From contig JAJPIG010000011.1 in the NCBI GenBank assembly GCA_021324855.1, positions 194,877-258,876 of the forward strand: a DNA stretch of 64,000 bases, read 5' to 3'. Under the pieces are notes generated by a model. That model ran no database searches. It saw nothing but the letters and a program-made list of their open reading frames with translations, and had not been told where the DNA came from. The translations under genes were made by a program, and so were the position numbers. This DNA is from Pseudomonadota bacterium (GTDB taxonomy: Bacteria; Desulfobacterota; Binatia; Binatales; Binataceae). Below, piece after piece: positions 34,854 to 47,860 of the stretch (the stretch's first letter is position 1; every line of letters starts with the position of its first letter).

Positions 34854-36011
34854 TCAGGCTGAAACGGCGGGGGCGGGGCGCGGCGAGCTGGGTTTCTGGT
34901 GGATGCCACACAAGAGGTCGCGCAGCTTGTCGGGATTTACCGGCTTCTTGAAAATGGCGCCCTCAAGCCCGCGCATCCGGCTGCGCTTGATGACGTGATC
35001 CTTGTCGTAATAGTAGGCGGTCATCAGGATGCACGGCAGGTCGGGAAACTCCTCCTTGACGCGCAGGTAGAACTCGTAGCCGTCCATCTCCGGCATCACG
35101 ACGTCCGACAACACTGCATCGACGCGCACGTTGCGGATGAGGCCCAGCGCGGCGCTGGGGCGGGTCGCCGTGTAGACCACACATCGCTCGGCGCGCAGGA
35201 TGTCCGCGAGCGAATTGACGACCGAGACGTCATCGTCGAGCACCAACACCGCCATTCCGGAGAGCGGCCATTCTCTGGCGGGACGCGGCTGGCCGTTCGC
35301 CGCGGTCTCCTCGGAAACGACTTCGCAGGCGAGATCGGCCATCCGCTTGCCCTTGAGATAATCGCGCGTGATGTACTTGCCGGTGCGCGCCATGTCGTCG
35401 AGCCGGCGGACGATCGCCTGCACGCGCTTGACGCCGAGCCGAATCGATTCGAGGCGTTCGTTTTCGACCACGCGCTCCGCGCCGCTCAGATGCATTTCCA
35501 TGTCGCGCCCAAGCAGGTCGAGATTGTTCGTGATGCTTTCGAGGGGGTTGTTGATCTCATGGGCGAGGCTGACGGCGATTTCGCCGGCGGTCGCAAGCTG
35601 CTCCCGCTGGCGCATCTGGCGGATATCGCGGGCGAAGCCGATCGATCCGACCTCGCGATGTTCGTCGTCGTAAATAATCGAGCCGGAAATCGCTACCGGC
35701 AGGTCTTGATTGTCCTTGTCGCGGAAAACGGTTTCAAAATTCGAGATGCGGCCCGAGTCGGGTGACTCGCGCATCGCCTTCATCACGCGGCGTGCCTCGT
35801 CGATCGACGGATAGATGCGGGTGACTTTCTGCCCGATAATCTCGCTCGGAACATAGTGGAGGCTTCGACGCGCGCTGTCGTTGTAATAGATCACCACGCC
35901 GTCACGGTCGACGGCGATCACGATGTCGGGCGAACTTTCGATCAGCCTGTATAGGTATTTTTTTTCGAGTGAAAGCATGGAGATATTAGAACGCTCCTGA
36001 GCGGTAGTCAT
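34854..36011 (-). CDS. PAS-HisKA-receiver protein without an ATPase domain
   Basis: 385 residues from the ATG at 36011 (GGATAG upstream). A PAS domain covers about 18-130 (LIESSPDIVIAVDRDGVVIY). A dimerisation/His-phosphotransfer helix has His151 in LAHEINNPLESITNNL. A receiver domain occupies about 253-370 with Asp259-Asp260, phosphoacceptor Asp303 (LSDVVMPEMDGYEF) and Lys356. Between HisKA (ending about 215) and the receiver there is only about 35 residues, so the HATPase_c domain that would phosphorylate His151 is absent. The frame is open throughout and no frameshift is needed. It may relay phosphate from another kinase. Confidence 0.82.
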   Translation of the reverse strand: MTTAQERSNISMLSLEKKYLYRLIESSPDIVIAVDRDGVVIYYNDSARRSLHYVPSEIIGQKVTRIYPSIDEARRVMKAMRESPDSGRISNFETVFRDKDNQDLPVAISGSIIYDDEHREVGSIGFARDIRQMRQREQLATAGEIAVSLAHEINNPLESITNNLDLLGRDMEMHLSGAERVVENERLESIRLGVKRVQAIVRRLDDMARTGKYITRDYLKGKRMADLACEVVSEETAANGQPRPAREWPLSGMAVLVLDDDVSVVNSLADILRAERCVVYTATRPSAALGLIRNVRVDAVLSDVVMPEMDGYEFYLRVKEEFPDLPCILMTAYYYDKDHVIKRSRMRGLEGAIFKKPVNPDKLRDLLCGIHQKPSSPRPAPAVSA

Positions 36012-36494
36012 CGCTATCCGACGCTGCCGTGCGATATCAGATTGTTGAAGGCGTGATTGTACAGGGAAAGAACCCGGTAAATCCTCGAGTCTAACGCGGT
36101 CCCCTCGGACGGTTTCAGACACATGTGCGTCGCCACCATCCCCACATACCTCGCTAGCACCATCATTCACTACATCATACCCCTGCGTATGGTGAAAGAG
36201 GCACTTGTGGCTAAATTCAGCCCCTTATGGCCAGTCGGCGGCACCATCGTCGGGATCACTCCACAGGGAACGAGAGCTATCTAGGACAGATCGCGGCCGG
36301 TGGTCAAACATCATTCGGAAGCGGCGTCGGTCGTCTATACTGTGATAGAGCTCCGATACTGGGCATTCTGCCGCTCAGCGCGATTGCCCAAGAAAACGGC
36401 CATCGCCGCCGATGGCGCCGGATCGCGAATGTGATGGCCGGTCAGTTGCTAGATGCGACCCTTGAACCTAGAATTGGTCAAGGAGATTTTGCTA
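36012..36494. other. Long intergenic region between divergent signalling genes
   Basis: About 480 bases separate the PAS-HisKA-receiver gene (minus) and the VWA gene (plus). A TATACT box at 36336-36341 could be a -10 element but has a poor -35 partner (TTCGGA, 36314-36319). I see no terminator or believable gene; short frames here have atypical composition. It should carry the promoters of both units, including that of the phospho-signalling cluster. Confidence 0.35.
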
Positions 36495-37796
36495 ATGGCC
36501 GAGCAGCTTAGCTTTGAGGCGCTTCCCAGCCGCCAATACGTCCTTTCAAGTGCGGAAAACTTTGTGCTCTACGTGCTGCTCGAAGCCATTGCGCAAGGTG
36601 CGGCCAGTGGCCAAGGCGGCAGATTACCGCTCAACCTGGGCGTGGTGCTCGATCGTTCCGGGTCGATGTACGACGAACGGCGCCTCGAGTTCGTAATCGA
36701 AGCCGTCAAGTTCCTGATCGACAATCTCACGCCGGAAGACAAGGTGACGATCGTCGCGTTCGCCGATCAGGCGCGGATTATTGCCTCACCCGAGACGATG
36801 CGCGACAAGGCAGGTGCCAAGCACGCTATCGATGACATCGACCTGCTCGAGATCGGCGGTGGCACCCAGATGGCGCTCGGGATGCGGATGGCGATCGACG
36901 AGGTGAAGAAAAACCTCACTGCCAATCGTCTAAACCGGGTGCTCATTTTGACCGACGGTCAAACCTACGAAGAGACTGCTTGCATCGATCTCGCCAATCA
37001 GAATCGCGACCAGATGTCGTTTTCGGCGATGGGGGTGGGTGTCGAATTCAACGAGAAGCTTTTGATGCGGATCGCACAGGACTCGCACGGAAAATATCAC
37101 TTCATCGGTGATCCCTCCGAGATTCCAGGCATCTTCGACGATGAGTTGCAGGGCCTGCGCGCGATCACGCTACGTAACGGCCGTATCGATCTCACGCTCT
37201 CGCAGGGCGTCCAGATTCGCGAGGCGTTCCGCGCCAGCCCGGAGATCTACGCGCTCGGAACGCCGCTGGTCGGCGACGAACGCAACATCAGCTACGAGAT
37301 TGGCGATCTCGAGGCGGGCGTGCCCGGCTCCGTCCTGCTGACGCTGGTGCTGCCCCCGCGTCGTCCGGGTCCGGTCCGCATCGGCCAGGCGAGCTTTCAC
37401 TACGAAGTTCCGGGCGCCGGCGAGCGGAGCGTCAATACCGATGTGACCGTGGAATACACCCTCGATCGCACGCTCACCAGCCGGGTCAACGGGCGCGTGA
37501 TGAACCTCGTCGACCAGGTCTCGATCGCCAAGCTCCAGGCGCGTGCCGAAGAGGAACTCAAGGCCGGCAACGTCGATCGCGCCACGCGCCTGTTGAGCAA
37601 CGCGATCCAAGGCACGCAACGGTTGGGCAATACCAAGGCGACCCAAGCGCTCGCGGGCTTGATGGATCAGGTCAAGAAGACCCAGACGCTTCAGACCAAG
37701 GCGGCCAAGACCACACTTCTGCAAGCGCAGGCGGTCGTGCGCAAGACGCAGATGCTCGACCCTGAGGCGTTGAAGGAATTCAGCAAACCGGATTGA
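36495..37796 (+). CDS. VWA domain protein heading the Ser/Thr phospho-signalling cluster
   Basis: 433 residues from the ATG at 36495 (AAGGAG upstream; an ATG at 36453 is possible). The VWA domain (about 45-220) has an intact metal site: Asp53-Ser55-Ser57 in VVLDRSGSMYDERR, a Thr in GGGTQMALGM and Asp in LILTDGQTYEE. A beta-rich middle part follows (about 225-335), then a helical C-terminus with QARAEEELKAGNVDRATRLL, TPR-like. There are no membrane helices, so it is cytoplasmic. Proteins of this form accompany FHA and kinase genes in several phyla and probably act as a scaffold or target in phospho-dependent assembly. Confidence 0.8.
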   Translation: MAEQLSFEALPSRQYVLSSAENFVLYVLLEAIAQGAASGQGGRLPLNLGVVLDRSGSMYDERRLEFVIEAVKFLIDNLTPEDKVTIVAFADQARIIASPETMRDKAGAKHAIDDIDLLEIGGGTQMALGMRMAIDEVKKNLTANRLNRVLILTDGQTYEETACIDLANQNRDQMSFSAMGVGVEFNEKLLMRIAQDSHGKYHFIGDPSEIPGIFDDELQGLRAITLRNGRIDLTLSQGVQIREAFRASPEIYALGTPLVGDERNISYEIGDLEAGVPGSVLLTLVLPPRRPGPVRIGQASFHYEVPGAGERSVNTDVTVEYTLDRTLTSRVNGRVMNLVDQVSIAKLQARAEEELKAGNVDRATRLLSNAIQGTQRLGNTKATQALAGLMDQVKKTQTLQTKAAKTTLLQAQAVVRKTQMLDPEALKEFSKPD

Positions 37797-37862
37797 GACC
37801 GATTAAAATGGATCTGGCGGACGGGATTATCGAACAGTCACCCGCGAAGGGGCCTAAAGACA

Positions 37863-38492
37863 ATGGTTAAGTGCAGCGAATGCGGCTACGAGAATATCGA
37901 CGGGCTTGATTACTGCGACGGATGCGGCGCGAAGCTTCCAGTCGCGGCCAGCGCACCGGCCGGCGGCGCTCCCAATGGCGGAGCTGCGCCCACGCCGAGC
38001 GAAGCCTCCGCGGCGGAGCCGGCGGCTCCGGCAGCGGAGGCCGGGGCGGGAGGCGCTGCAGCGCCAGCGTCGGAGGCGCCGACTGGCGAGATCACACCGC
38101 CGCCCGCCGCTCCGACTCCGGCGGTTGAGCCCGCAGCAGCAGTGGCCTCTGCGTTCAAAGCTAAGCTCCAAATTGTTCGCGGCGAGGGCAAGGGACAGGA
38201 GCTACCCCTCGATGAAGGCAACAATGTCATCGGGCGATGGGATCCTGAAACCGGCGCGTTCCCCGAAGTCGACCTCGACAAATACGATCCGGAAGCCAAA
38301 GTATCGCGCAAGCATGCGCTGCTTCGAATTGATGGTGGAAAGATAACGGTCGAGGATATGGGCAGCCTCAACGGAACCTATGTGAATCGTCAGCCGCGCC
38401 TGGCTCCGGGCACTCCGGTTGAGCTTAAATCCGGCGATGAGATCATTATCGGCAAGACTTTCCTGAAGCTAGTCGTCGACCCGATTTCCTGA
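37863..38492 (+). CDS. Zinc-ribbon and FHA-domain protein
   Basis: 209 residues. The N-terminal zinc ribbon has Cys4, Cys7, Cys18 and Cys21 (KCSECGYENIDGLDYCDGC). An Ala/Pro/Glu-rich linker of about 75 residues leads to the C-terminal FHA domain (about 102-205). The FHA domain has the conserved VIGRWDPETG, KVSRKHALLRIDG and DMGSLNGTYVN elements; the Arg, Ser and Asn needed to bind phosphothreonine are present. It is likely the phospho-reader of the cluster. The linker is typical of flexible tethering. It begins 66 bases after the VWA gene. Confidence 0.85.
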   Translation: MVKCSECGYENIDGLDYCDGCGAKLPVAASAPAGGAPNGGAAPTPSEASAAEPAAPAAEAGAGGAAAPASEAPTGEITPPPAAPTPAVEPAAAVASAFKAKLQIVRGEGKGQELPLDEGNNVIGRWDPETGAFPEVDLDKYDPEAKVSRKHALLRIDGGKITVEDMGSLNGTYVNRQPRLAPGTPVELKSGDEIIIGKTFLKLVVDPIS

Positions 38493-38499
38493 GGGTTTG

Positions 38500-38538
38500 C
38501 CGGAATCCGGGCAGGCCCGCCAGACCGTCGGATTCCGG
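38500..38538. repeat. Perfect inverted repeat between FHA and kinase genes
   Basis: CCGGAATCCG (38500-38509) and CGGATTCCGG (38529-38538) form a perfect 10-bp stem with a 19-base loop. No U-tract follows, so it is more likely an RNA-processing or stability element or a protein-binding site than a terminator. Confidence 0.55.
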
Positions 38539-38550
38539 TAATCAGTACCA

Positions 38551-40155
38551 ATGCAACGGGGAGAGCCGCTCCCTACCGGTCATCTGCTCGACAGCCGCTA
38601 CCGCATCAAAAAGATGATCGGCGCGGGGGGAATGGGACGGGTCTATCTCGGCAACGACACCCGGCTTTCGAGCCGTCCCGTCGCGGTCAAGGAGATGATC
38701 GTCAGCGACGGAGTGCATGAAAAAAAAGCGATGGAGGATTTCACGCGCGAGGCGCGGGTCCTTGCGATGCTCACCCACCCGGGAATTCCCAACATCATCG
38801 ATTTCTTCACCGAGGGAAACCGCCATTACCTGGTAATGGAGTTCGTGGCCGGCGGCGATTTACAGCATCTGCTGGACCAGTTCGGACCGGGCGGGCGGAT
38901 GCCCGAAGTGGCGGTGCTCAAATGGTCGCGCCAGATTCTCGACGTCCTAATCTTCCTGCACTCGCAGAACCCGCCGATCGTCTATCGCGATCTGAAGCCG
39001 GGCAACATCATGGTGGACAAGGACGGACGCGCGATGCTGGTCGATTTCGGCATCGCGCGATTCCTGCCTCCGGGCGGACGCGGGACCCAGATCGGCTCAG
39101 TCGGTTATGCGCCGCCCGAGCAGTATATGGGTAAGACCGAGCCGCGCTCTGATCTCTACTCGCTCGCCGCCACGATGCATCATCTGCTGACCGGACGCGA
39201 TCCGCAGCTCGCACCGCCCTTCAGCTTTCCACCTGTCCGTGAACTGGCCCCCGATGTCTCGATCCAAACCGAGCGCGTGGTAATGAAGGCGCTTGACAAG
39301 GACGTCGCGAAGCGGCCGGCCTCCGCCCTCGAGATGAAGGAGGCGCTGCCGGAGCCTCCGTCCGACACGCCGGAGGAAACCTTCGCCCCAGCCAGTCACA
39401 GCCTCACTCCCGCCGCCGTTCGTCCGATCTCGAATGTCGCGACAGTCGTATTGCCGGGGAGCGCAGCGATGCCAGCTCTTCCGGCCCGCCCTGCGCCACC
39501 GGCTTCATCGACGATGAAGACAGTGGTCCTGCCTACGGCTGAATCGCCCGCGCCGACAATCAGCCGGGTCGAGCGCCTAAAGAACGTGATCAAAGCGCTC
39601 GCTCCCACGCCGCATCAGATCAGCACCGAGGTTACCGAGCCTCTTAAGCCTCCGCCCTCGGTATCATCGACGGCCAAGACACAGGATCTGGCGCCTGCGC
39701 GTTCCTCGATGCCAACGCCGGCCAAGCCTGTGCCGCGTCAGGTATCGCGGCCGCCGGTGCGCGTTCCGGCATCGGCCCCGACCCCAGCTCCACGTCCGAA
39801 TTCGAACGGCGCCGCTCACCGGGCGCCTTCCGGCCCGGTTCCCAAGCTAATTGCACGGGCGCAGGGCGCGCAGTTCGAACTGGTCGCTGGGCGCATGGTA
39901 ATCGGGCGGTCGATAAATGCGGCCGATCGGCCCGATATCGATTTGGCATCGCTCAAAGACGGTATCGGCCGGGTCTCGCGCCGGCATGCCGAGATCATCC
40001 GCAAGGGCAACGACTACTTCATCCGCGATCTCGGCAGCCTGAACGGCACTTACATCGGCGGTCGTGGCCGACTTGGGCGCGACCAGCTTTATAAGCTCAA
40101 AGATCGCGATGAGGTCGTCCTCGGCGAAACGCGGCTTCAGTTTCGAGAAAGCTGA
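38551..40155 (+). CDS. Ser/Thr protein kinase with C-terminal FHA domain
   Basis: 534 residues. The kinase domain (about 14-270) has a glycine loop IGAGGMGRVYLG, Lys47, Glu67, YRDLKPGN with catalytic Asp147, DFG Asp165, and the APPEQY variant of the APE motif. The activation loop RGTQIGSVGYAPPEQY is short with possible phosphosites. A Pro/Ala/Ser/Thr-rich linker of roughly 160 residues leads to an FHA domain (about 440-534) with MVIGRSINAADRPDIDLASL, RVSRRHAEII and DLGSLNGTYIGG. There is no membrane segment, so it is soluble. The kinase could mark its own linker, then be bound by FHA proteins of the cluster. Confidence 0.92.
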   Translation: MQRGEPLPTGHLLDSRYRIKKMIGAGGMGRVYLGNDTRLSSRPVAVKEMIVSDGVHEKKAMEDFTREARVLAMLTHPGIPNIIDFFTEGNRHYLVMEFVAGGDLQHLLDQFGPGGRMPEVAVLKWSRQILDVLIFLHSQNPPIVYRDLKPGNIMVDKDGRAMLVDFGIARFLPPGGRGTQIGSVGYAPPEQYMGKTEPRSDLYSLAATMHHLLTGRDPQLAPPFSFPPVRELAPDVSIQTERVVMKALDKDVAKRPASALEMKEALPEPPSDTPEETFAPASHSLTPAAVRPISNVATVVLPGSAAMPALPARPAPPASSTMKTVVLPTAESPAPTISRVERLKNVIKALAPTPHQISTEVTEPLKPPPSVSSTAKTQDLAPARSSMPTPAKPVPRQVSRPPVRVPASAPTPAPRPNSNGAAHRAPSGPVPKLIARAQGAQFELVAGRMVIGRSINAADRPDIDLASLKDGIGRVSRRHAEIIRKGNDYFIRDLGSLNGTYIGGRGRLGRDQLYKLKDRDEVVLGETRLQFRES

Positions 40156-40161
40156 GAATTT

Positions 40162-42111
40162 ATGATCACGTGCCCGCAATGCGGTCAAGATGCGTCCGAA
40201 GGAACCCGGTTCTGTGAGCGATGCGGTCAGGGATTGAGCGCAACGGATCCGCAATCGCCCGCGCCGTCGCTTTCCCCGCTCGCGGCAGGGACCGTTCTCA
40301 AAGGCGGCTTCGAGGTAGTTGAACTTCTGAGCCAAACTTCGATTGAGAACCGCTATCGGGCTACGCGCGAGGAATCCGGCAACAAGGTCGCGTATCAACT
40401 CCGCGAGCGAGTCGGGTCATCGCGCGAACTTGAGGCGGAGTCGTCATCAGCATCGAACGTCGCGAGCGATGGCGCCCAGCCCGATGCAGCTCCAGTGGTT
40501 CCGGATGAAGATCCCGCCGGGCCACGCGCGAAAACCGCGGAGCTTAGCCCGCCGGCGCCGAGCGGTTCAGATGAGCAGCCGACCGAGCAACCCAGTCCAG
40601 CCCCCGAAGCCGGCGAAGTGGGCCAGGTTCTGCTCGCCGAAACGGCGGCTGTCGAAGTGGAACCTGAGCAGTCGAAACCGGCTGAATCCGAACCGGAACC
40701 GGCCGCCGGCGTCGACGATCTCGGAGATGCTTTCGGCCGTGTGCTCGCGCTCTCAATGACGCTCAAGCACGCCGCCTTCCAGCGCGCAATCGAAGGCTTT
40801 GCCGCCGATGGCCGCGTCTACCTGGTCTATCCCGATGAGCCGTTCACGCCACTCTCGCAGCGCAAGGGCGGCATCAAGATGAGCGAAGCGGAAGCGATCA
40901 ACGTCGCGATCCAGCTTTGCCAGGCAGTAAGCTTTCTCCATCGGCGCGCGCTCCGCCTTAACGACATCTGCCCCGAATCGATCGGCTACGGCGCCGACCG
41001 ACGCATCAAGGTGGCGGGCCTTGAGAGCGTCAGCAACGATAATGAGCTGCAGGCCGATCCGATCTTCAACGATGGCTATACGGCGCCCGAAATCTATCGT
41101 GCTAGGAAGGTCGACAAGCGCGCGGACATCTTTTCGATCGGGGCCCTGCTCTACACTTGCCTGACAGGCGAGCGCCTTGAATCTGAGAGCTGGCGCGAGG
41201 AATCCGGTCCGATCCGGTTCTATCCGCCGCACGTGATCACGCCAGCGCTCGAACAGGTGGTGCGGCGTGCCTTGGTCTTCAATCCGGAGGGGCGGTGGCC
41301 GAATGTGGATGCGATGAAAGCCGAGCTGGTGAAGCTTGCAGGGGCAATCGAGCTGCGCTCGGCCGCGATGACGGACGTTGGGATGGTCCGCGAATTGAAT
41401 GAAGACATCGTAATGGCGATCGATTACCGCCGCGACTCGCAGGTCGAGCCCGCCGAGCGGCATCTGTACGTCGTATGCGACGGGATGGGCGGCGCCGAGG
41501 CGGGTGAGATCGCGGCCGCAATTGCCGTCGGCGCGATCCGGAATTACATTGAGGCCAGACTCGACTCTGCACCGAATGCTAACTTGGCGGAACTGCTGCA
41601 AGCTGCGCTGGAGGAGGCTAACTCGAAAATCATTGAGTACCAGGCGGCGCATCCGGAGGCGCGCGGGATGGGCTCGACGGCGGTCGGCGTGCTCGCGGTG
41701 CCGCCGAGGGCCGCGTTCGCATGGGTCGGCGACAGCCGTGCCTACCTGCTCGAGAACGGCGAATTACGTCAGCTCACCAGGGATCACTCGCTGGTGCAGA
41801 GGCTGGTCGAGATCGGACAGATCAGCCCCGAAGAGGCGCGGCATCATGAGCACAAAAACGTCATCACGCGATCGCTCGGCGCGCGCGCAAGCGGAGCGGC
41901 GGGCGCCGAGGCGAAGGAGCTTCGCCTCAAGCGGGGCGATCGCCTAATGCTGTGTAGCGACGGACTGGTGGCGCATGTCGACGACGCGCAAATCGCCGAG
42001 GTGCTTCGGCGTCATCAGGAGCCGGCGGCCGCGGCGCGCGAACTGGTGGTGGCGGCTAATGCGGGCGGGGGAACGGATAACGTATCGGTGATTGTTGTTT
42101 TTGCGGATTGA
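40162..42111 (+). CDS. Zinc ribbon - pseudokinase - PP2C phosphatase fusion
   Basis: 649 residues. The zinc ribbon has Cys4, Cys7, Cys18 and Cys21, the same spacing as in the FHA protein at 37863. A kinase-like domain (about 42-395) is interrupted by a low-complexity insertion (about 90-185). The VAIK Lys is Gln79 (KVAYQL), the HRD/N segment reads RLNDICPESI (Asp268 kept, Lys and Asn replaced by Cys270 and Ser273), and DFG is AGL at 285-287, so it should be catalytically dead. A complete PP2C domain follows (about 396-649): TDVGMVRELNEDIVMAI, VVCDGMGGAEAGE, LCSDGLVAHVDD and GGTDNVSVIVV. Soluble. It probably reverses the cluster's kinases. Confidence 0.9.
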   Translation: MITCPQCGQDASEGTRFCERCGQGLSATDPQSPAPSLSPLAAGTVLKGGFEVVELLSQTSIENRYRATREESGNKVAYQLRERVGSSRELEAESSSASNVASDGAQPDAAPVVPDEDPAGPRAKTAELSPPAPSGSDEQPTEQPSPAPEAGEVGQVLLAETAAVEVEPEQSKPAESEPEPAAGVDDLGDAFGRVLALSMTLKHAAFQRAIEGFAADGRVYLVYPDEPFTPLSQRKGGIKMSEAEAINVAIQLCQAVSFLHRRALRLNDICPESIGYGADRRIKVAGLESVSNDNELQADPIFNDGYTAPEIYRARKVDKRADIFSIGALLYTCLTGERLESESWREESGPIRFYPPHVITPALEQVVRRALVFNPEGRWPNVDAMKAELVKLAGAIELRSAAMTDVGMVRELNEDIVMAIDYRRDSQVEPAERHLYVVCDGMGGAEAGEIAAAIAVGAIRNYIEARLDSAPNANLAELLQAALEEANSKIIEYQAAHPEARGMGSTAVGVLAVPPRAAFAWVGDSRAYLLENGELRQLTRDHSLVQRLVEIGQISPEEARHHEHKNVITRSLGARASGAAGAEAKELRLKRGDRLMLCSDGLVAHVDDAQIAEVLRRHQEPAAAARELVVAANAGGGTDNVSVIVVFAD

Positions 42112-42114
42112 TTG

Positions 42115-44514
42115 ATGGCTAATCCGCCCACATCATCCGATCCGACGGCAAGCGGGCCGCTGGAGACCGGCACGATTCTCCAGAACCGCTACCAGATCGA
42201 GCGGCTGCTCGGCGGCGGCGGGATGGGGATGGTGTATCTCGCACGTGACCAGCGCCTCGCCAATCGCCCCTGCGCCATCAAGGAGATGGTCGATCATTTC
42301 ATCGACCCTCAGCAACGCATCGAGGCCAACGAATATTTCGCGCGCGAGGCAGATACCCTGGCCCAGTTGAAGCACGTCGCGATTCCGGCCATCACCGACC
42401 GTTTCGATCAACGCAATCGCCATTACCTCGTGATGGAGTACATCGAGGGGCGCAACCTCGAAGAGGAACTCGCCGCAGGCGGCGGCGGTCCGCTCTCCGA
42501 GGGGCTGGTGATCGACATCGGGCGCCAGCTCTGTGACGTGCTCGCTTACCTGCACGGCCTCACGCCGCCGATCATCTATCGCGACATGAAGCCGTCGAAC
42601 GTGATGCTCACGCCGCGCGGCCGCGTGGTGCTGATCGACTTCGGCATCGCGCGCCTGTTCCGCGCCGCGCGCAAGGGCACGATGATCGGAACGTTGGGCT
42701 TCGCGCCGCCCGAGCAATACCAGGGCGCGGTCGATCCTCGCAGCGACATCTATTCGTTGGGCGCGACGCTACATTACATTCTGACCGGGCGCGACCCTGA
42801 AAAGTTTCCACCCTTCAGCTTCCCGCCGGTGCGCGACCTGCGGCCTGACGTGTCGAGCAATCTCGCCGGGGCGATCGATCGCGCGCTCAAATACGATGTA
42901 AACGCGCGCCCGCAATCTATCCAGGAATTCCGCGACATGATGCTCTACGGGCGCGGACTCACCGCCGAAAGCTCCGGCGTGAGCGGACGCACCGGCACGG
43001 CGGACCTTGTGATGCCTGCGGAGCCGTACCATACCGGCCCGGTTCGGCCGCGGCCCGCGCATCCGATGCGCCGCGCGATTGGAATCGCGTTAGTAGCGCT
43101 GATTCTGGGCGGCGGCGCGTTCGGTGCGACTTACATATACCGCAATCCCGCTCTTCAGAATCAGCTTGGAATCAAAGACTACATCGACAGTTTGCCCTGG
43201 AAACACGAAGAGCTGATCGCCGAGATCCGTAAGCACCCGCTTGATTTTCAGCGAATGACGCTAGCGCTTTCTACCCGCGAAGGCACGCCGCTGTCGCGCC
43301 CTCAATCGACCTTCAAGGATACCGACATCAACTCGGCGCATTACATGCAATGGAACGCATCGTTCATCAACAGGATGGCGGGACTCGAGGGGATCAACGA
43401 CAAGATCGATGCGAGGTTCTATGACCCGGCGGGCCATCAGATTGCGATGAGCACAGCGAGCCGGTTCATCGGGCCGGCGGACAAGGCCGTCGATTTCAGC
43501 GGCGTCGTGTTGATGCCGGACGTCAGCACCAGGCCGGCTGGCGATTACAAGGTCGCGCTTTTCTCCAACGATCAACTCCTGGCCGAGCAGCGCTTCACAG
43601 TCACGCAAGACCTTGCGGCGCGTACCAGGGCGGGGACGTCGTCGTCCGCATCGGTCCCGGCGCCGGCGCCAGCACCGTCGGTGGATGAGAAGAAACGCGA
43701 GCGAGAGCTTGCGATGCTCGAGGAGCGCAGACGGCGCCCGCTCGAACTCAGGAGCATCCAATTTGTCAATACCACCAAGAGCGGCACCGAGCTTTCCGGT
43801 CCATCCACCAGCTTCAAGGTTTCCAAAGTGCTCTTCGTTGGGTGGCAGGTGTCGTTCGCCAATCGGCTGTTTGGACTGCAATCCAATGAATACCGGGTTG
43901 ATGCCGCTTACATCGCGCCCAGCGGCGGGATGCTCGGCAGCGTTGATGACATCCAAGTGGTGCCGCGCACAGCCCGCACCGCGACCTTCAGCGGGCGCGT
44001 GGGCAACTCCGCTGGTGGCGCATTCCTGCCCGGCGTCTACACGGTAAATTTCTATCTCAACGGGCAATACTTCGCGCAGCGCAAGTTCCGGGTTGTCGAG
44101 GATGGACCGCCGCCGGCCTCGACGACGGCATCGTCGGGTATGAGCGGCGGCGCGATGGGCGGAGGTTTCCCAGCCTCGCCGCCGGTTGCCACCAGCGCGT
44201 TTCCGCCGCTCGACAGCCCGCTTCTGGCCCGCGGAGAAATCAACGGTATCGGCGGGCGTAACAACGTCGGTATGGAACTGCGGCTTCGTCCGCAGCCCAA
44301 CGGCTTCCTGCACGGCGAGCTGGTGGTCAACGAGCCCGGCTACGGCCTCACCTCAATCGAGGGCTTCGTGCGCGGTAATCGCCTTCAGTTCCAGGTGCCA
44401 TACGGAACCGAGACCTATTATTTCGAAGGCACACGCGCGAGCGATCATCTGAGCGGCACGTTCGAATCGACTCCCTCCGGCTCGCGCGGAACCTGGAGCA
44501 CGGTGGCGAACTGA
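42115..44514 (+). CDS. Transmembrane Ser/Thr protein kinase with duplicated extracytoplasmic domain
   Basis: 799 residues from the ATG at 42115, 4 bases after the PP2C gene. The cytoplasmic kinase (about 20-285) has LLGGGGMGMVYLA, Lys56, YRDMKPSN with Asp157, DFG Asp175 and the APPEQY motif. A single membrane helix spans about 320-342. Outside lie two homologous beta-rich units, about 378-496 (FKDTDINSAHYMQWNASFIN) and 543-661 (FKVSKVLFVGWQVSFANRLF), joined by an Ala/Pro-rich, then basic linker. A C-terminal domain, about 700-799, ends without further motifs (ELRLRPQPNGFLHGELVVNE). The ectodomain is not a PASTA repeat, so the ligand is unknown. This is the envelope sensor of the cluster. Confidence 0.9.
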   Translation: MANPPTSSDPTASGPLETGTILQNRYQIERLLGGGGMGMVYLARDQRLANRPCAIKEMVDHFIDPQQRIEANEYFAREADTLAQLKHVAIPAITDRFDQRNRHYLVMEYIEGRNLEEELAAGGGGPLSEGLVIDIGRQLCDVLAYLHGLTPPIIYRDMKPSNVMLTPRGRVVLIDFGIARLFRAARKGTMIGTLGFAPPEQYQGAVDPRSDIYSLGATLHYILTGRDPEKFPPFSFPPVRDLRPDVSSNLAGAIDRALKYDVNARPQSIQEFRDMMLYGRGLTAESSGVSGRTGTADLVMPAEPYHTGPVRPRPAHPMRRAIGIALVALILGGGAFGATYIYRNPALQNQLGIKDYIDSLPWKHEELIAEIRKHPLDFQRMTLALSTREGTPLSRPQSTFKDTDINSAHYMQWNASFINRMAGLEGINDKIDARFYDPAGHQIAMSTASRFIGPADKAVDFSGVVLMPDVSTRPAGDYKVALFSNDQLLAEQRFTVTQDLAARTRAGTSSSASVPAPAPAPSVDEKKRERELAMLEERRRRPLELRSIQFVNTTKSGTELSGPSTSFKVSKVLFVGWQVSFANRLFGLQSNEYRVDAAYIAPSGGMLGSVDDIQVVPRTARTATFSGRVGNSAGGAFLPGVYTVNFYLNGQYFAQRKFRVVEDGPPPASTTASSGMSGGAMGGGFPASPPVATSAFPPLDSPLLARGEINGIGGRNNVGMELRLRPQPNGFLHGELVVNEPGYGLTSIEGFVRGNRLQFQVPYGTETYYFEGTRASDHLSGTFESTPSGSRGTWSTVAN

Positions 44515-44598
44515 TCTCGACAATCGATCCGGTTTCCGGCTCGGTTACGAACGGTGCTTGAACCGGAGCGTCGCTAGCTGCAATGCTGTGGGTGACCG

Positions 44599-45471
44599 AT
44601 GGCTTCTAGCGTTTCTCGCGAAAAGCTCCTGTTCTATGCCGTGGCGGGCGGTCTAGGCGGCCTCGGTGCATGGGGCGCCGCTGAGCCCTTCCTTGGCATC
44701 CGCAGCGTTTACGGCCGCGACATCCTGCTCGGCGCGCTGATCGGGCTCTTTATCGCGGTCTTTCTCGCCTCGATCGAAGCGCTCAGCGTCGATCAATGGC
44801 GGCAGGCGATGCGCGGCACGAGCAGCGGCGCGGTTTTCGGCATTATAGGCGGCGCGGCGGGTCTGGTGGTCGGCGAGTATGCGTTCGATATCGTGGGTGG
44901 AACGCCCGGCCGGATAATCGGCTGGACGCTGCTGGGCCTGGTCGTCGGACTCGGCGCCGGATGGGCTACGCGATCGAATGCGCGCCGGCGCAACGGCGCA
45001 ATTGGCGGAGTCATCGGCGGGGCTCTCGGCGGGTTTATTTACCAGATTCTCACCGCGATCTTCCCGCAGGCATTCGGCCGCGCCATCGCGATCATCGTGC
45101 TCGGCATGCTGATTGGATTTTTCATCGGGCTGGTCGGTGAGCTGCTCAAGCGGGGATGGCTGATGGTCGTGCGAAGCCAGAGCCGCAATGCGCGCGAAGG
45201 CCGCGAATACCCGCTGATTAAGCCGGTCACCACCATCGGGCGCGCCGAGGAAAGCGATGTCGGTCTGTTCGGTGACAGCAGTGTGATGCCGCAGCATGCG
45301 CTCATCCGGCGCGAAGGCCGCAACTTCGTGGTCAGTCCCGCAGGGGGCGGTCAGGTAATCGTGAATCGACAGCCGCTCGCAGGCCGACAGGTGCTGAAAA
45401 GCGGCGATCGCATCGAGGTTGGAGGAACACTGTTCCTGTTTCGTGATCGAGCGCAGGCCAGCGGCAGTTAG
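44599..45471 (+). CDS. Multi-pass membrane protein with C-terminal FHA domain
   Basis: 290 residues. Five or six Gly/Ala-rich membrane helices cover about 10-190, including glycine-zipper stretches such as AVFGIIGGAAGLVVG and NGAIGGVIGGALGGFIY. A cytosolic FHA domain follows (about 195-285): PLIKPVTTIGRAEESDVGLF, MPQHALIRREGRNFVV and VNRQPLAGRQVLKSGDRIEV. The usual GSxNGT loop is replaced by GGGQVIVN, so phosphopeptide affinity may differ. It may anchor phosphorylated partners at the membrane. The kinase gene lies 84 bases upstream. Confidence 0.82.
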   Translation: MASSVSREKLLFYAVAGGLGGLGAWGAAEPFLGIRSVYGRDILLGALIGLFIAVFLASIEALSVDQWRQAMRGTSSGAVFGIIGGAAGLVVGEYAFDIVGGTPGRIIGWTLLGLVVGLGAGWATRSNARRRNGAIGGVIGGALGGFIYQILTAIFPQAFGRAIAIIVLGMLIGFFIGLVGELLKRGWLMVVRSQSRNAREGREYPLIKPVTTIGRAEESDVGLFGDSSVMPQHALIRREGRNFVVSPAGGGQVIVNRQPLAGRQVLKSGDRIEVGGTLFLFRDRAQASGS

Positions 45472-45484
45472 GCGGGGGAATCAG

Positions 45485-46252
45485 GTGCCGGATTCGGGGA
45501 GAGCATGGCTCGCGATGGTCGCTCTGACCGGCGCGCTATGGCTTGCCGGTTGCGCCCCGGCGGGACAGTCTTCGTTGAGCACGGCCGCGCCCGCCATCAC
45601 CAACATTGAATATTACCCGTACCTGGTCAAAGGTTATCAGAATAGCTATCCCAAGCGGCGGATCTTGATTTTGATGCCTGTCGACGCTCATCAGGCGACC
45701 GCGATTTCGGGCGCCGCTGCAACTTCGTACCAGGGCAACACCGCGATCGGCATGACTGAAGATGCGACCGGTCGCGCGGTCGAGGAACTCTACGCCCCGC
45801 CGCTGGCGCCGGTGGTGCAGAACGCGATCCAGCAATCCGCGACCGAGGCGGGCTTGATCGCAACGCTTGCGCCCGATGCGGTCTACGTTCCGGCGAAAGA
45901 CCTGAACGAGGATTACGTGCTCGAGAGCCGCATCGTCCGCTGCTGGGTGACGAAACGTCCAGGCCCGGGCGGCGACGCGGGCCCGGCCTGGTTCAGTGCA
46001 GCGGAATTCGCGGTCGAAGTGACAATCTATAAGCCGCCGTTCACGGTGCCATTCTGGCAGGGCAAGAGCGGCTCGAATTATGACGATCCGCCTGTGGACA
46101 GCAATGCGATCAGCCCCGAGGACGAGACCGCGATCTACGATCAGCCCGGGCAGGTGCTGTCGGTTGCGATGACGCGCGCGGTGGCCGGAATTTTCGACCG
46201 CACCGAGTTGTACGCGCTGGTGAATGACGATCGGATGTCCGCGCGCCGCTAA
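45485..46252 (+). CDS. Lipoprotein of unknown function at the end of the phospho-signalling cluster
   Basis: 255 residues from a GTG at 45485 with GGGGGA upstream (an ATG at 45515 is an alternative). The signal peptide ends with a LAGC lipobox. The mature protein has KRRILILMPVDAHQATAISG, then GLIATLAPDAVYVPAKDLNE and ESRIVRCWVTKR. It has no recognised domain. Mixed alpha-beta pattern; a role as a membrane-anchored periplasmic partner of the kinase or a transport component is possible. The gene is 13 bases after the FHA membrane protein. Confidence 0.65.
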   Translation: MPDSGRAWLAMVALTGALWLAGCAPAGQSSLSTAAPAITNIEYYPYLVKGYQNSYPKRRILILMPVDAHQATAISGAAATSYQGNTAIGMTEDATGRAVEELYAPPLAPVVQNAIQQSATEAGLIATLAPDAVYVPAKDLNEDYVLESRIVRCWVTKRPGPGGDAGPAWFSAAEFAVEVTIYKPPFTVPFWQGKSGSNYDDPPVDSNAISPEDETAIYDQPGQVLSVAMTRAVAGIFDRTELYALVNDDRMSARR

Positions 46253-46327
46253 GTGGTTCGCTTCGCCGGCTACAAGAGCTGAACCGAACGGGGGCCTTAA
46301 GCCGCCCCCACTTGGAAGGTAGGACGC

Positions 46328-47860
46328 ATGGCCCAGGACTCCCGCCAGACCGTCGAAATCCATCCGTCCCGAATCAAGCAGCGGATGCCGCCGTGCGCGC
46401 TGGTAATCTTCGGCGGCGCTGGCGACCTGAGCCATCGCAAGCTGCTGCCCGCGCTCTACAATCTTTCGATCGACAATGAACTGCCGGAGCATGTTGCGGT
46501 CGTCGGGTTTTCGATGGAGGATCTGAATGACGATTCCTACCGTCAATTCGCGCGCAGCGGGATCGAGCAGTTCTCGCGCCGGCCGCTCGATGAATCGCAG
46601 TGGAGCAGGTTCGCGCCGCTGCTGCATTTCGTGCGCGGCGACTTTACCGACGCTTCGACTTACAACGCACTGCGCACGCGCCTCGCGGAGATCGATCAGC
46701 AGGCCGGTACGCACGAAAATCGCGTCTTCTACTTCGCGATTCCACCCTCGTTCATCGACACCTGCTCGAACGGTCTAAAGGCAAGCGGCATGATTCAGCC
46801 GGCCGACGTCGAGCGGGCGCCATTCACGCGCGTCGTTGTGGAAAAGCCAATCGGCTCGGATCTGGCGAGCGCGCGCGAAATCAATGCACGGCTCGCGCGC
46901 TACTTCGACGAGAGCCAGATTTTCCGCATCGATCACTATCTCGGCAAGGAGACCGTCGAGAACCTGCTGGTATTGCGCTTTGCCAACTCGGTCTTCGAAC
47001 CGCTGTGGTCATCGCACTTTGTCGATCACGTGCAGATCACGGTGGCCGAGCAGGAAGGGGTGGGCACGCGCGCCGCGTATTACGATCACGCTGGAGCGCT
47101 GCGCGATATGGTGCAGAGCCACCTGTTGCAGGTGTTGTGCATGATCGCGATGGAGGCGCCGCGCACCACGGCCGCCGACGCGGTGCGCGACTCGAAGCTC
47201 GATGTGTTGCGCTCGCTCAAACCGCTTGAAGGCGACGAAATCGGCCGCTTCGTCGTGCGCGGACAGTATGCCGAGGGCGTGGTCGCCGGCGAAAAGGTGA
47301 ACGCCTATCGCAGCGAGGAGCACGTCGCGCCCGATTCGACCATCGAGACTTTCGTCGCGCTGCGCTGCTTCGTCGAGAACTGGCGCTGGGCGGGAGTGCC
47401 GTTTTACCTGCGCACCGGCAAGCGGATGCCGAAGCGGGCGAGCGAGATCGCGATCTACTTCAAGTCCGTGCCGCGCATCCTGTACAACAATCCGCCGCGC
47501 CCGCCGCTTGAGCCGAACGTCCTGGTGCTGCGGATTCAGCCCGACGAAGGTCTCGCGCTGAATATCATCTCGAAGCTGCCGGGCGCCGAAGTCCGGCTTG
47601 CGCCTGTCAAGGTCGATTTCCATTACACCACCGCGTCGCCCGAGGCGTATGAGACCTTGCTGCGCGATGTGATCCTCGGCGATCAGACGCTCTTCATGCG
47701 CCGCGATACGATCGAAGCCGCGTGGCAGTTCGTGCAGAACATTCTCGACGCCTGGGCGGAGGCGCCGAGCGAACCGCCGCTCTATCCCGCCGGATCATGG
47801 GGCCCGATCGAGTCGGCCCTGATGATCGCCGCGGACGGACGCGCCTGGCGCAATCCTTGA
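46328..47860 (+). CDS. zwf: Glucose-6-phosphate 1-dehydrogenase
   Basis: 510 residues. It oxidises glucose 6-phosphate to 6-phosphogluconolactone, feeding the oxidative pentose phosphate or Entner-Doudoroff route. The dinucleotide motif is VIFGGAGDLSHRKLLPALYN. The substrate and catalytic stretch is RIDHYLGKETVENLLVLRFA with its His. LYNNPPRPP and VDFHYTTASPEAYETLLRD are also typical. A GGAAGG ribosome site lies ahead of the ATG. It is followed 12 bases later by glucokinase, so the two form a glucose-entry operon with the aldolase. Confidence 0.95.
   Translation: MAQDSRQTVEIHPSRIKQRMPPCALVIFGGAGDLSHRKLLPALYNLSIDNELPEHVAVVGFSMEDLNDDSYRQFARSGIEQFSRRPLDESQWSRFAPLLHFVRGDFTDASTYNALRTRLAEIDQQAGTHENRVFYFAIPPSFIDTCSNGLKASGMIQPADVERAPFTRVVVEKPIGSDLASAREINARLARYFDESQIFRIDHYLGKETVENLLVLRFANSVFEPLWSSHFVDHVQITVAEQEGVGTRAAYYDHAGALRDMVQSHLLQVLCMIAMEAPRTTAADAVRDSKLDVLRSLKPLEGDEIGRFVVRGQYAEGVVAGEKVNAYRSEEHVAPDSTIETFVALRCFVENWRWAGVPFYLRTGKRMPKRASEIAIYFKSVPRILYNNPPRPPLEPNVLVLRIQPDEGLALNIISKLPGAEVRLAPVKVDFHYTTASPEAYETLLRDVILGDQTLFMRRDTIEAAWQFVQNILDAWAEAPSEPPLYPAGSWGPIESALMIAADGRAWRNP

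Follow-up and report, generated by a model that had tools for sequence, protein, structure and literature searches.

Homologues of archaeal ArnA and ArnB in a conserved bacterial kinase, phosphatase and FHA gene cluster, a probable phospho-switch

Introduction

In the archaellum regulatory network of Sulfolobus acidocaldarius, the zinc-finger FHA protein ArnA and the VWA protein ArnB are encoded by neighbouring genes (structures 5A8I and 8S05, the latter being the ArnA-ArnB complex). As described in the available part of PMC12852372, the kinase ArnC phosphorylates the C-terminal helices of ArnB; the zinc finger of ArnA accounts for a loose complex and its FHA domain, which binds the phosphorylated C terminus, for a tight one; and PP2A dissociates the pair, whose downstream signalling is still open despite the structures. 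The same source names a Catenulispora acidiphila VWA protein and Escherichia coli YfbK as bacterial structural relatives, mostly outside multi-phosphorylation processes, and in its available part no mention was found of FHA, kinase and phosphatase genes clustered in a bacterium. Here we describe such a cluster in a 64,000-nucleotide stretch of contig JAJPIG010000011.1 (the window) from a genome of the family Binataceae. Its seven genes encode, in order, a VWA protein, a zinc-ribbon FHA protein, a soluble kinase-FHA protein, a protein that joins a zinc ribbon, a pseudokinase and a PP2C phosphatase, a membrane kinase, a membrane FHA protein and a lipoprotein. The original prediction, made from the DNA letters, had called the cluster a self-contained Ser/Thr signalling island that seemed to match no described system. 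We find that its first two proteins are homologous to ArnB and ArnA, and that the cluster is probably a bacterial ArnAB-like phospho-switch with a writer and an eraser of its own.

GarA and OdhI are also FHA switches that involve a kinase, a phosphatase and a phosphothreonine reader. The PpkA/PppA/Fha control of the type VI secretion system (T6SS) has the same three components (available part of PMC3953482). TerY-P comprises a VWA protein, a PP2C phosphatase and a kinase with a C-terminal zinc ribbon (available part of PMC11090510). Finally, a kinase-PP2C-vWA theme, in which the kinase often has a zinc ribbon, occurs in actinobacterial GAP1-N2 GTPase systems. This theme resembles the window cluster in bringing kinase, PP2C and standalone vWA genes together, and differs from it in its link to GTPase systems and in that FHA is no part of the theme as described in the available part of PMC7159879.

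Results

The VWA and zinc-ribbon FHA proteins are homologous to ArnB and ArnA

A Protein Data Bank search with a profile of the window VWA protein gave as its best match the solved structure of the C. acidiphila VWA protein (4fx5_A, E = 7.4e-18, residues 45-399), and ArnB itself was matched over nearly the same span (8s05_A, 1.8e-16, residues 45-391). The remaining matches listed lie in or near the VWA domain. When the VWA domain was removed, the C-terminal profile still retrieved 4fx5_A (8.3e-6), a structure that shows the ArnB architecture (available part of PMC6509490). From the sequence alignment, the window protein would have the ArnB-type layout of a VWA domain, a β-sandwich and a helical C-terminal bundle. 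The zinc-ribbon FHA protein matches ArnA over residues 3-182, which include both the ribbon and the FHA domain (5a8i_A, 8.7e-10; 8s05_C, 1.3e-9). By sequence, the two proteins are thus homologous to archaeal ArnB and ArnA over most of their length, and the view that the cluster matches no described system is not supported.

The best Protein Data Bank match of a Herpetosiphon VWA protein is ArnB (2.2e-13, residues 34-413), and at the end of the alignment its tail LTQKL is placed on VTKKL of ArnB. Because T371 and T375 are spaced four residues apart near the ArnB end, the threonine of VTKKL is read as T375. This is one of three threonines phosphorylated by ArnC within 5 min in vitro (available part of PMC12852372).

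The bacterial and archaeal systems also share Hanks-type kinases. The archaeal kinases phosphorylate C-terminal threonines and a phosphatase reverses this, whereas the bacterial phosphorylation is putative. The eraser is PP2A in the archaeon and PP2C in the window cluster, which itself holds the kinases and the eraser together with a pseudokinase, a membrane kinase, a membrane FHA protein and a lipoprotein. Bacterial tails carry KTxxL or TRxL, whereas ArnB has IETT motifs too. In contrast to the archaeal pair, which controls the archaellum and swimming, the bacterial cluster has no known archaellum link.

Threonine motifs recur in VWA tails and in linkers

All 19 VWA proteins inspected from the window's class, 13 from its own family (f1) and 6 from a sister family (f97), contain [KR]TxxL within their last 50 residues. 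These tails hold 55 motifs, compared with a shuffle mean of 2.84, and none of 2000 shuffles scored as high, a figure that kinship among the proteins inflates, as it does in the tests below. In Chloroflexota, 39 of 42 VWA tails match T[RK]xL or KTxxL (shuffle mean 3.4, 0/2000 as high), and two of the three misses stop at a contig edge. The Chloroflexota tails hold 61 motifs in 1,890 residues, a density about twelve times that of the remainder of these proteins (47 in 17,178). The 40 other open reading frames (ORFs) of the window hold 9 motifs in 15,935 residues.

The motif is also found in linkers. The linkers of the kinase-FHA proteins are of low complexity and cannot be aligned, and [KR]TxxL is present in 12 of 13 (0/2000 shuffles), mostly in the context T-A-[KR]-T-x-[DE]-L. 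The exception, in locus L094, is a 506-residue frame in which the kinase part is a copy of the membrane kinase; it is probably an assembly chimera. The pseudokinase-PP2C linker carries the motif in 11 of 12 f1 proteins (0/2000 shuffles). Among the f97 proteins, L079 has an RTAEL just inside the pseudokinase boundary.

In a first cross-phylum test, T..[LM] occurred in the last 45 residues of 32 of 40 VWA proteins with a kinase, PP2C or FHA neighbour, a group that includes the doubtful or cut L043, L139 and L157, compared with 11 of 58 without one. The 58 take in L095, which belongs to the family but lies on a short contig, and L109, whose tail is of the Armatimonadota type. FHA domains can select by the residue at pT+3 (available part of PMC5549992), and the leucine at this position may fit such selection. 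The original prediction had named the VWA protein among possible targets; it looks like the main one because proteins from different phyla share the candidate threonine motif at its C terminus. In L148 (9869-11125), a VWA protein titled as cyanobacterial (Paraprochloron) ends in KKTRIVSKTILQE, although none of its neighbours scored as a kinase, PP2C or FHA gene. The threonine tail may therefore occur here with dispersed partners.

The cluster is conserved in the window's class and its core in other phyla

A search with the membrane FHA protein matched 51 of 145 class genomes. Fifty were carried on and G308, whose only match was at 7.6e-6, was dropped. At E<=1e-60, the VWA protein was found in 46 of the 50 and the pseudokinase-PP2C protein likewise in 46. 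In 31 of the 50 family or class genomes, the genes for the VWA, PP2C and membrane FHA proteins keep the same order and fit within 15 kb; this count includes G417, in which the membrane FHA is an 89-residue fragment at a contig end. Apart from G392, discussed below, the remaining 18 offer no test of order because a contig breaks or a gene is missing.

In f1, the full seven-gene order is present in nine loci (L037, L038, L039, L040, L082, L083, L086, L089 and L093) and also in contigs L094 and L096. The other f1 loci fetched (L084, L085, L088 and L090) stopped at contig ends or were limited by the stretch chosen. The six f97 loci all retain the VWA, zinc-ribbon FHA, pseudokinase-PP2C, membrane kinase and membrane FHA genes, and in L077, also of f97, the membrane FHA protein has 782 residues. 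In several relatives zwf or fba flanks the cluster. Outside the class, locus L041 of G068, which seems to lie on the same contig as L098, contains PP2C, VWA, zinc-ribbon FHA and kinase genes, as well as a fused membrane FHA-VWA-FHA-zinc-ribbon protein. The neighbourhood check thus extends the gene order beyond this genome, and the reading of the cluster as a conserved single-orientation signalling island is supported.

Some loci show departures of their own. In G031:C1 (L042, L043) runs of N interrupt the VWA gene and the two halves are separated by about 143 kb, a pattern that fits a scaffold misjoin. A second mini-locus, in G000:C10 (L091, 8595-11827) and G121:C8 (L092), has a kinase with an internal zinc ribbon beside a membrane protein with FHA domains and is paralogous to the kinase and membrane FHA of the window. 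G411 and G422 have no strong membrane FHA match and have matches of the grade of this paralogue.

Contigs were also scanned with the VWA alignment, and the best 80 of 320 relatives were taken; their neighbours were scored with profiles built in this analysis. Within these 80, kinase, PP2C and/or FHA genes lie beside the VWA gene in Chloroflexota (L099-L103), in Armatimonadota (L104, L107, L112, L124, L136 and L141) and at L106 and L108, for which no phylum is given. Most lower-ranked VWA genes have no such neighbours. VWA, FHA, PP2C and kinase genes occur together in only one of these Armatimonadota loci, L104. Herpetosiphon, Promineifilum and Ardenticatenia are members of Chloroflexota.

Of 201 genomes in the Herpetosiphon phylum, 59 contain a VWA relative (E<=1e-40). 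From 34 of the 59, 38 loci with 42 VWA genes were collected. For 24 of the 42, same-strand kinase, PP2C and FHA genes lie no more than 4.5 kb away, and in each of these 24 the first gene scored after the VWA gene is FHA; the commonest order is kinase-PP2C-VWA-FHA (14/24). Herpetosiphon giganteus DSM 589 has VWA genes and a zinc-ribbon PP2C gene in L099 and kinase, PP2C, VWA and FHA genes in L240. Clustering of the neighbours without a profile match in the 38 loci established no common output as a conserved effector beside this core. The largest clusters, in 18, 8 and 8 loci, are by eye GAF/sensor-like, lipoate-ligase-like and dihydrodipicolinate-synthase-like, and the 18-locus cluster is possibly chained through a common domain. 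One VWA protein of the Chloroflexota module has an N-terminal DnaJ domain (L222, 9146-10633, minus strand; Pfam 8.9e-20). Beside the core in L100 (12635-13866) lies an ORF in which zinc ribbons, a pair of FHA domains and the first part of an ABC ATPase can be recognised by eye, an Rv1747-like layout. This ORF is possibly a lineage-specific target.

Catalytic and phosphothreonine-binding residues

Both window kinases retain the catalytic lysine, YRD and DFG. The PP2C motifs DGMGG, GDSR, SDGL and DN are retained in 18 of 18 copies, and the window PP2C exceeds the equivalog cutoff of the NCBIfam model Stp1_PP2C_phos (NF033484; 238.4 bits, cutoff 230). The presence of two writers and one eraser, as originally predicted, is borne out by these residues. 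The pseudokinase label also holds, since by eye the DFG aspartate is missing in all 18 copies shown; the HRD aspartate is retained, as ND, in the 12 f1 copies. The kinases do not reach the NCBIfam equivalog for PASTA kinases (Stk1/PknB), with 207.6 and 186.5 bits against a cutoff of 450 and matches that stop at the kinase domain.

The phosphothreonine-binding residues of FHA domains are GR, SxxH and NG (available part of PMC1262709). In the window these are retained in the zinc-ribbon FHA and kinase-FHA proteins. In the membrane FHA, GR and the histidine are retained, and every copy shown is without NG and without the SxxH serine. Because the membrane FHA is degenerate, the cluster has two canonical FHA readers and not the three that had been proposed.

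Organization of the cluster

The seven ORFs all lie on the plus strand at 36495-46252 of the window, with gaps between adjacent genes of at most about 85 bases (Table 1), so that the single orientation and short spacing originally described are confirmed, as are the domains by Pfam. Among the first six genes the gaps are 66, 58, 6, 0-3 and 84 bases, and the lipoprotein gene starts at about the end of the membrane FHA gene. Pfam matches within the cluster are 1.9e-15, 3.9e-14 and 3.5e-9 for FHA, 1.9e-39 and 3e-35 for Pkinase with 6.8e-12 for the pseudokinase, and 5e-16 for PP2C; the lipoprotein has no Pfam match. The zinc ribbons fall below Pfam cutoffs, yet the CxxC...CxxC pattern is present. 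In the VWA protein the metal-binding MIDAS residues are intact (DRSGS, T, D), and by eye no signal peptide was seen. No target gene was recognised among the seven.

Table 1. Positions of the cluster genes and candidate threonine motifs in the window
Feature	Position	Strand	Remarks
VWA protein (ArnB-like)	36495..37796	+	433 aa; Pfam VWA 1.7e-18
Three KTxxL sites, VWA C-terminal tail	37677..37757	+	KTQTL 37677-37691, KTTLL 37707-37721, KTQML 37743-37757
Zinc-ribbon FHA protein (ArnA-like)	37863..38492	+	209 aa; GR, SRKH, NGT kept
Soluble Ser/Thr kinase-FHA	38551..40155	+	534 aa; catalytic Lys, YRD, DFG kept
Kinase-FHA linker motifs	39517-39531, 39676-39690	+	KTVVL, KTQDL
Zinc ribbon, pseudokinase and active-looking PP2C in one protein	40162..42111	+	649 aa
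PP2C-protein linker motif	40531-40545	+	KTAEL
Transmembrane Ser/Thr kinase	42115..44514	+	~799 aa; by eye a single membrane-spanning segment
Membrane FHA	44599..45471	+	N-terminal part hydrophobic, multi-pass-looking by eye; C-terminal FHA fold
Envelope lipoprotein	45515..46252 (start near 45467 or 45515)	+	LAGC lipobox by eye

In the region 36000-46600, a single σ70-like site was found, just 5' of the VWA gene, and three plus-strand terminator-like sites, all intragenic. Both signals are weak, with fewer sites than in shuffles. The 5' neighbour is a PAS-HisKA-receiver gene on the opposite strand (34854-36170, minus), in whose product no HATPase domain was detected with Pfam; its relatives also lie 5' of the VWA gene in L037, L038, L040, L082, L086, L089 and L093. 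The ORFs 3' of the cluster resemble zwf, glk and fba by eye.

Envelope components

The model of the lipoprotein (predicted local distance difference test (pLDDT) 86.6, predicted template modelling score (pTM) 0.83) retrieved in a fold search DUF330 (2iqi_F, Z 12.9, root mean square deviation (rmsd) 4.1, 167 aligned), PelC (5t0z_B, Z 11.4, rmsd 2.6, 129 aligned), CsgG (4uv2_D, Z 11.4, rmsd 5.8, 172 aligned), FlgT (3w1e, Z 11.3, rmsd 3.2, 148 aligned) and PqiC (8q2d_A, Z 10.2, rmsd 3.6, 142 aligned). The predicted fold is that of the group of DUF330/PqiC, PelC, CsgG, FlgT and LptE. A sequence search of the Protein Data Bank gave no match for the lipoprotein, and for the ectodomain of the membrane kinase it returned chiefly WD40-type matches, which are biased, and weak ones of FimD type.

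This ectodomain is large and extracytoplasmic, and its model (pLDDT 83.3, pTM 0.38) comprises two Ig/FnIII-like β-sandwich domains and a C-terminal all-β domain. Because the pTM is low, only the domains were used and not their arrangement. In the fold search the second sandwich resembles a GH2 sandwich (6byg_B, Z 11.1, rmsd 2.4, 99 aligned) and the carbohydrate-binding domain of Wzt (6o14_B, Z 10.5, rmsd 2.4, 106 aligned). One might guess from the model that the ectodomain binds a carbohydrate ligand; shared folds are no demonstration of function.

Discussion

The observed homology, gene order, catalytic residues, conserved motifs and predicted folds together make it probable that the cluster is an ArnAB-like phospho-switch, for which we infer phosphorylation, docking, sensing and output as follows. 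The membrane kinase, with its extracytoplasmic β domains as the probable sensor, and the soluble kinase-FHA protein would phosphorylate the threonines of KTxxL, primarily in the VWA C-terminal tail and also in the kinase-FHA and PP2C linkers. The zinc-ribbon FHA protein would then dock its FHA domain on the phosphorylated tail, turning a loose complex into a tight one. PP2C would reset the switch, and the attached pseudokinase and zinc ribbon are probably regulatory parts. The membrane FHA-fold protein and the lipoprotein may couple the switch to the envelope.

Several observations weigh against this reading. Phosphorylation and binding in bacteria are proposed from homology and motifs. The profile match to the ArnB paralogue vWA2/ArnE (5a8j_A, 3.7e-9) is confined to the VWA domain, and ArnB was not among the matches of the C-terminal profile at E<=1. 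The window VWA protein has no match to Pfam ArnB_C (PF18677) at E<=1, and among 10 bacterial VWA proteins there was one match, at 11.1 bits against a cutoff of 26.3. OdhI and GarA outscore ArnA on the FHA part of the zinc-ribbon FHA protein. In ArnB itself, significant amounts of the last phosphopeptide were not detected in vivo. No single ArnB phosphosite is essential (available part of PMC12852372). The motif patterns were set after the sequences had been viewed, and the inflated shuffle figures overstate the strength of the enrichment. None of the six f97 pseudokinase-PP2C linkers has the motif, and Armatimonadota tails carry EKTLMG or EKTLMGT, a distinct threonine motif that is not TxxL; the Armatimonadota gene sets are, moreover, mostly incomplete. 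The kinase-FHA and lipoprotein genes were not found in the six f97 loci. In G392 the VWA, PP2C and membrane FHA genes are spread over 24 kb of one contig, and its locus L087 has the membrane FHA and lipoprotein genes without the other five alongside. A desaturase-like ORF (by eye) adjoins the membrane FHA gene there.

Control of the envelope or of transport, with the membrane FHA protein and the PqiC/PelC/CsgG-like lipoprotein as effectors and the VWA protein as an accessory, is possible if somewhat improbable. The fold of the lipoprotein, the membrane FHA protein itself and the likeness of the kinase ectodomain to carbohydrate-binding and GH2 β-sandwiches all fit this explanation, and the L100 locus adds an FHA-FHA-ABC transporter by eye. 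The lipoprotein is nevertheless missing from the f97 loci, where VWA, FHA and PP2C persist, and no membrane FHA profile match was scored in the 38 Chloroflexota loci, in which lipoproteins were not sought, although L100 had one.

It is unlikely that the tail motif is instead a phosphorylation-independent docking or structural element. Such an element would account for the conserved flanks (many Chloroflexota tails have KYGTR), which go beyond what a bare phosphosite requires. Against it, threonine with leucine at +3 is the common part of divergent tails and recurs in linkers that cannot be aligned, and its density in Chloroflexota tails far exceeds that elsewhere in the same proteins.

Derivation from a TerY-P-like stress or defence triad of VWA, PP2C and kinase that acquired FHA and membrane parts is quite unlikely. 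The same three protein classes and zinc ribbons are present, the two window kinases and the pseudokinase match PADLOC kinase models, and a zinc ribbon follows the kinase domain in 2 of 29 listed Chloroflexota kinases (L209, L211). TerY-P is, however, described without an FHA protein and with the ribbon on its kinase (available part of PMC11090510), whereas neither window kinase has the pattern and the ribbons are on the FHA and PP2C proteins. At E<=0.01, PADLOC models matched none of the VWA, zinc-ribbon FHA and membrane FHA proteins nor the lipoprotein. Nothing in the plasmid collection matched the membrane FHA, the VWA protein had a single phage match, limited to its VWA domain, and zwf or fba beside the cluster in several relatives is not suggestive of mobility. 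A mobile island was put aside on the same flanking genes and plasmid result, and T6SS control was rejected because there is no TagH-grade FHA: the window FHA proteins lie far below the TagH and OdhI cutoffs (VI_FHA at most 36.4 bits, cutoff 120.25), and no secretion genes are among the seven.

The ArnA/ArnB pair is already known in archaea; of the bacterial operon with a pseudokinase-PP2C protein, a membrane kinase and a tail motif, no description was found in the open-licence literature, which omits most subscription papers. We suggest tentatively, at a little short of an even chance, that the ArnAB-type switch is an ancient prokaryotic module of archaea and at least three bacterial phyla, that its bacterial form is the complete one, a single operon that includes the cognate writer and eraser, and that TRxL/KTxxL is a general FHA docking site. 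The bacterial ArnAB-like version would be a second system that unites site, reader, writer and eraser, with relatives in the cultured H. giganteus DSM 589, and it would also supply a candidate motif for docking, while many VWA, FHA and PP2C genes that are so far unnamed would gain a likely role.

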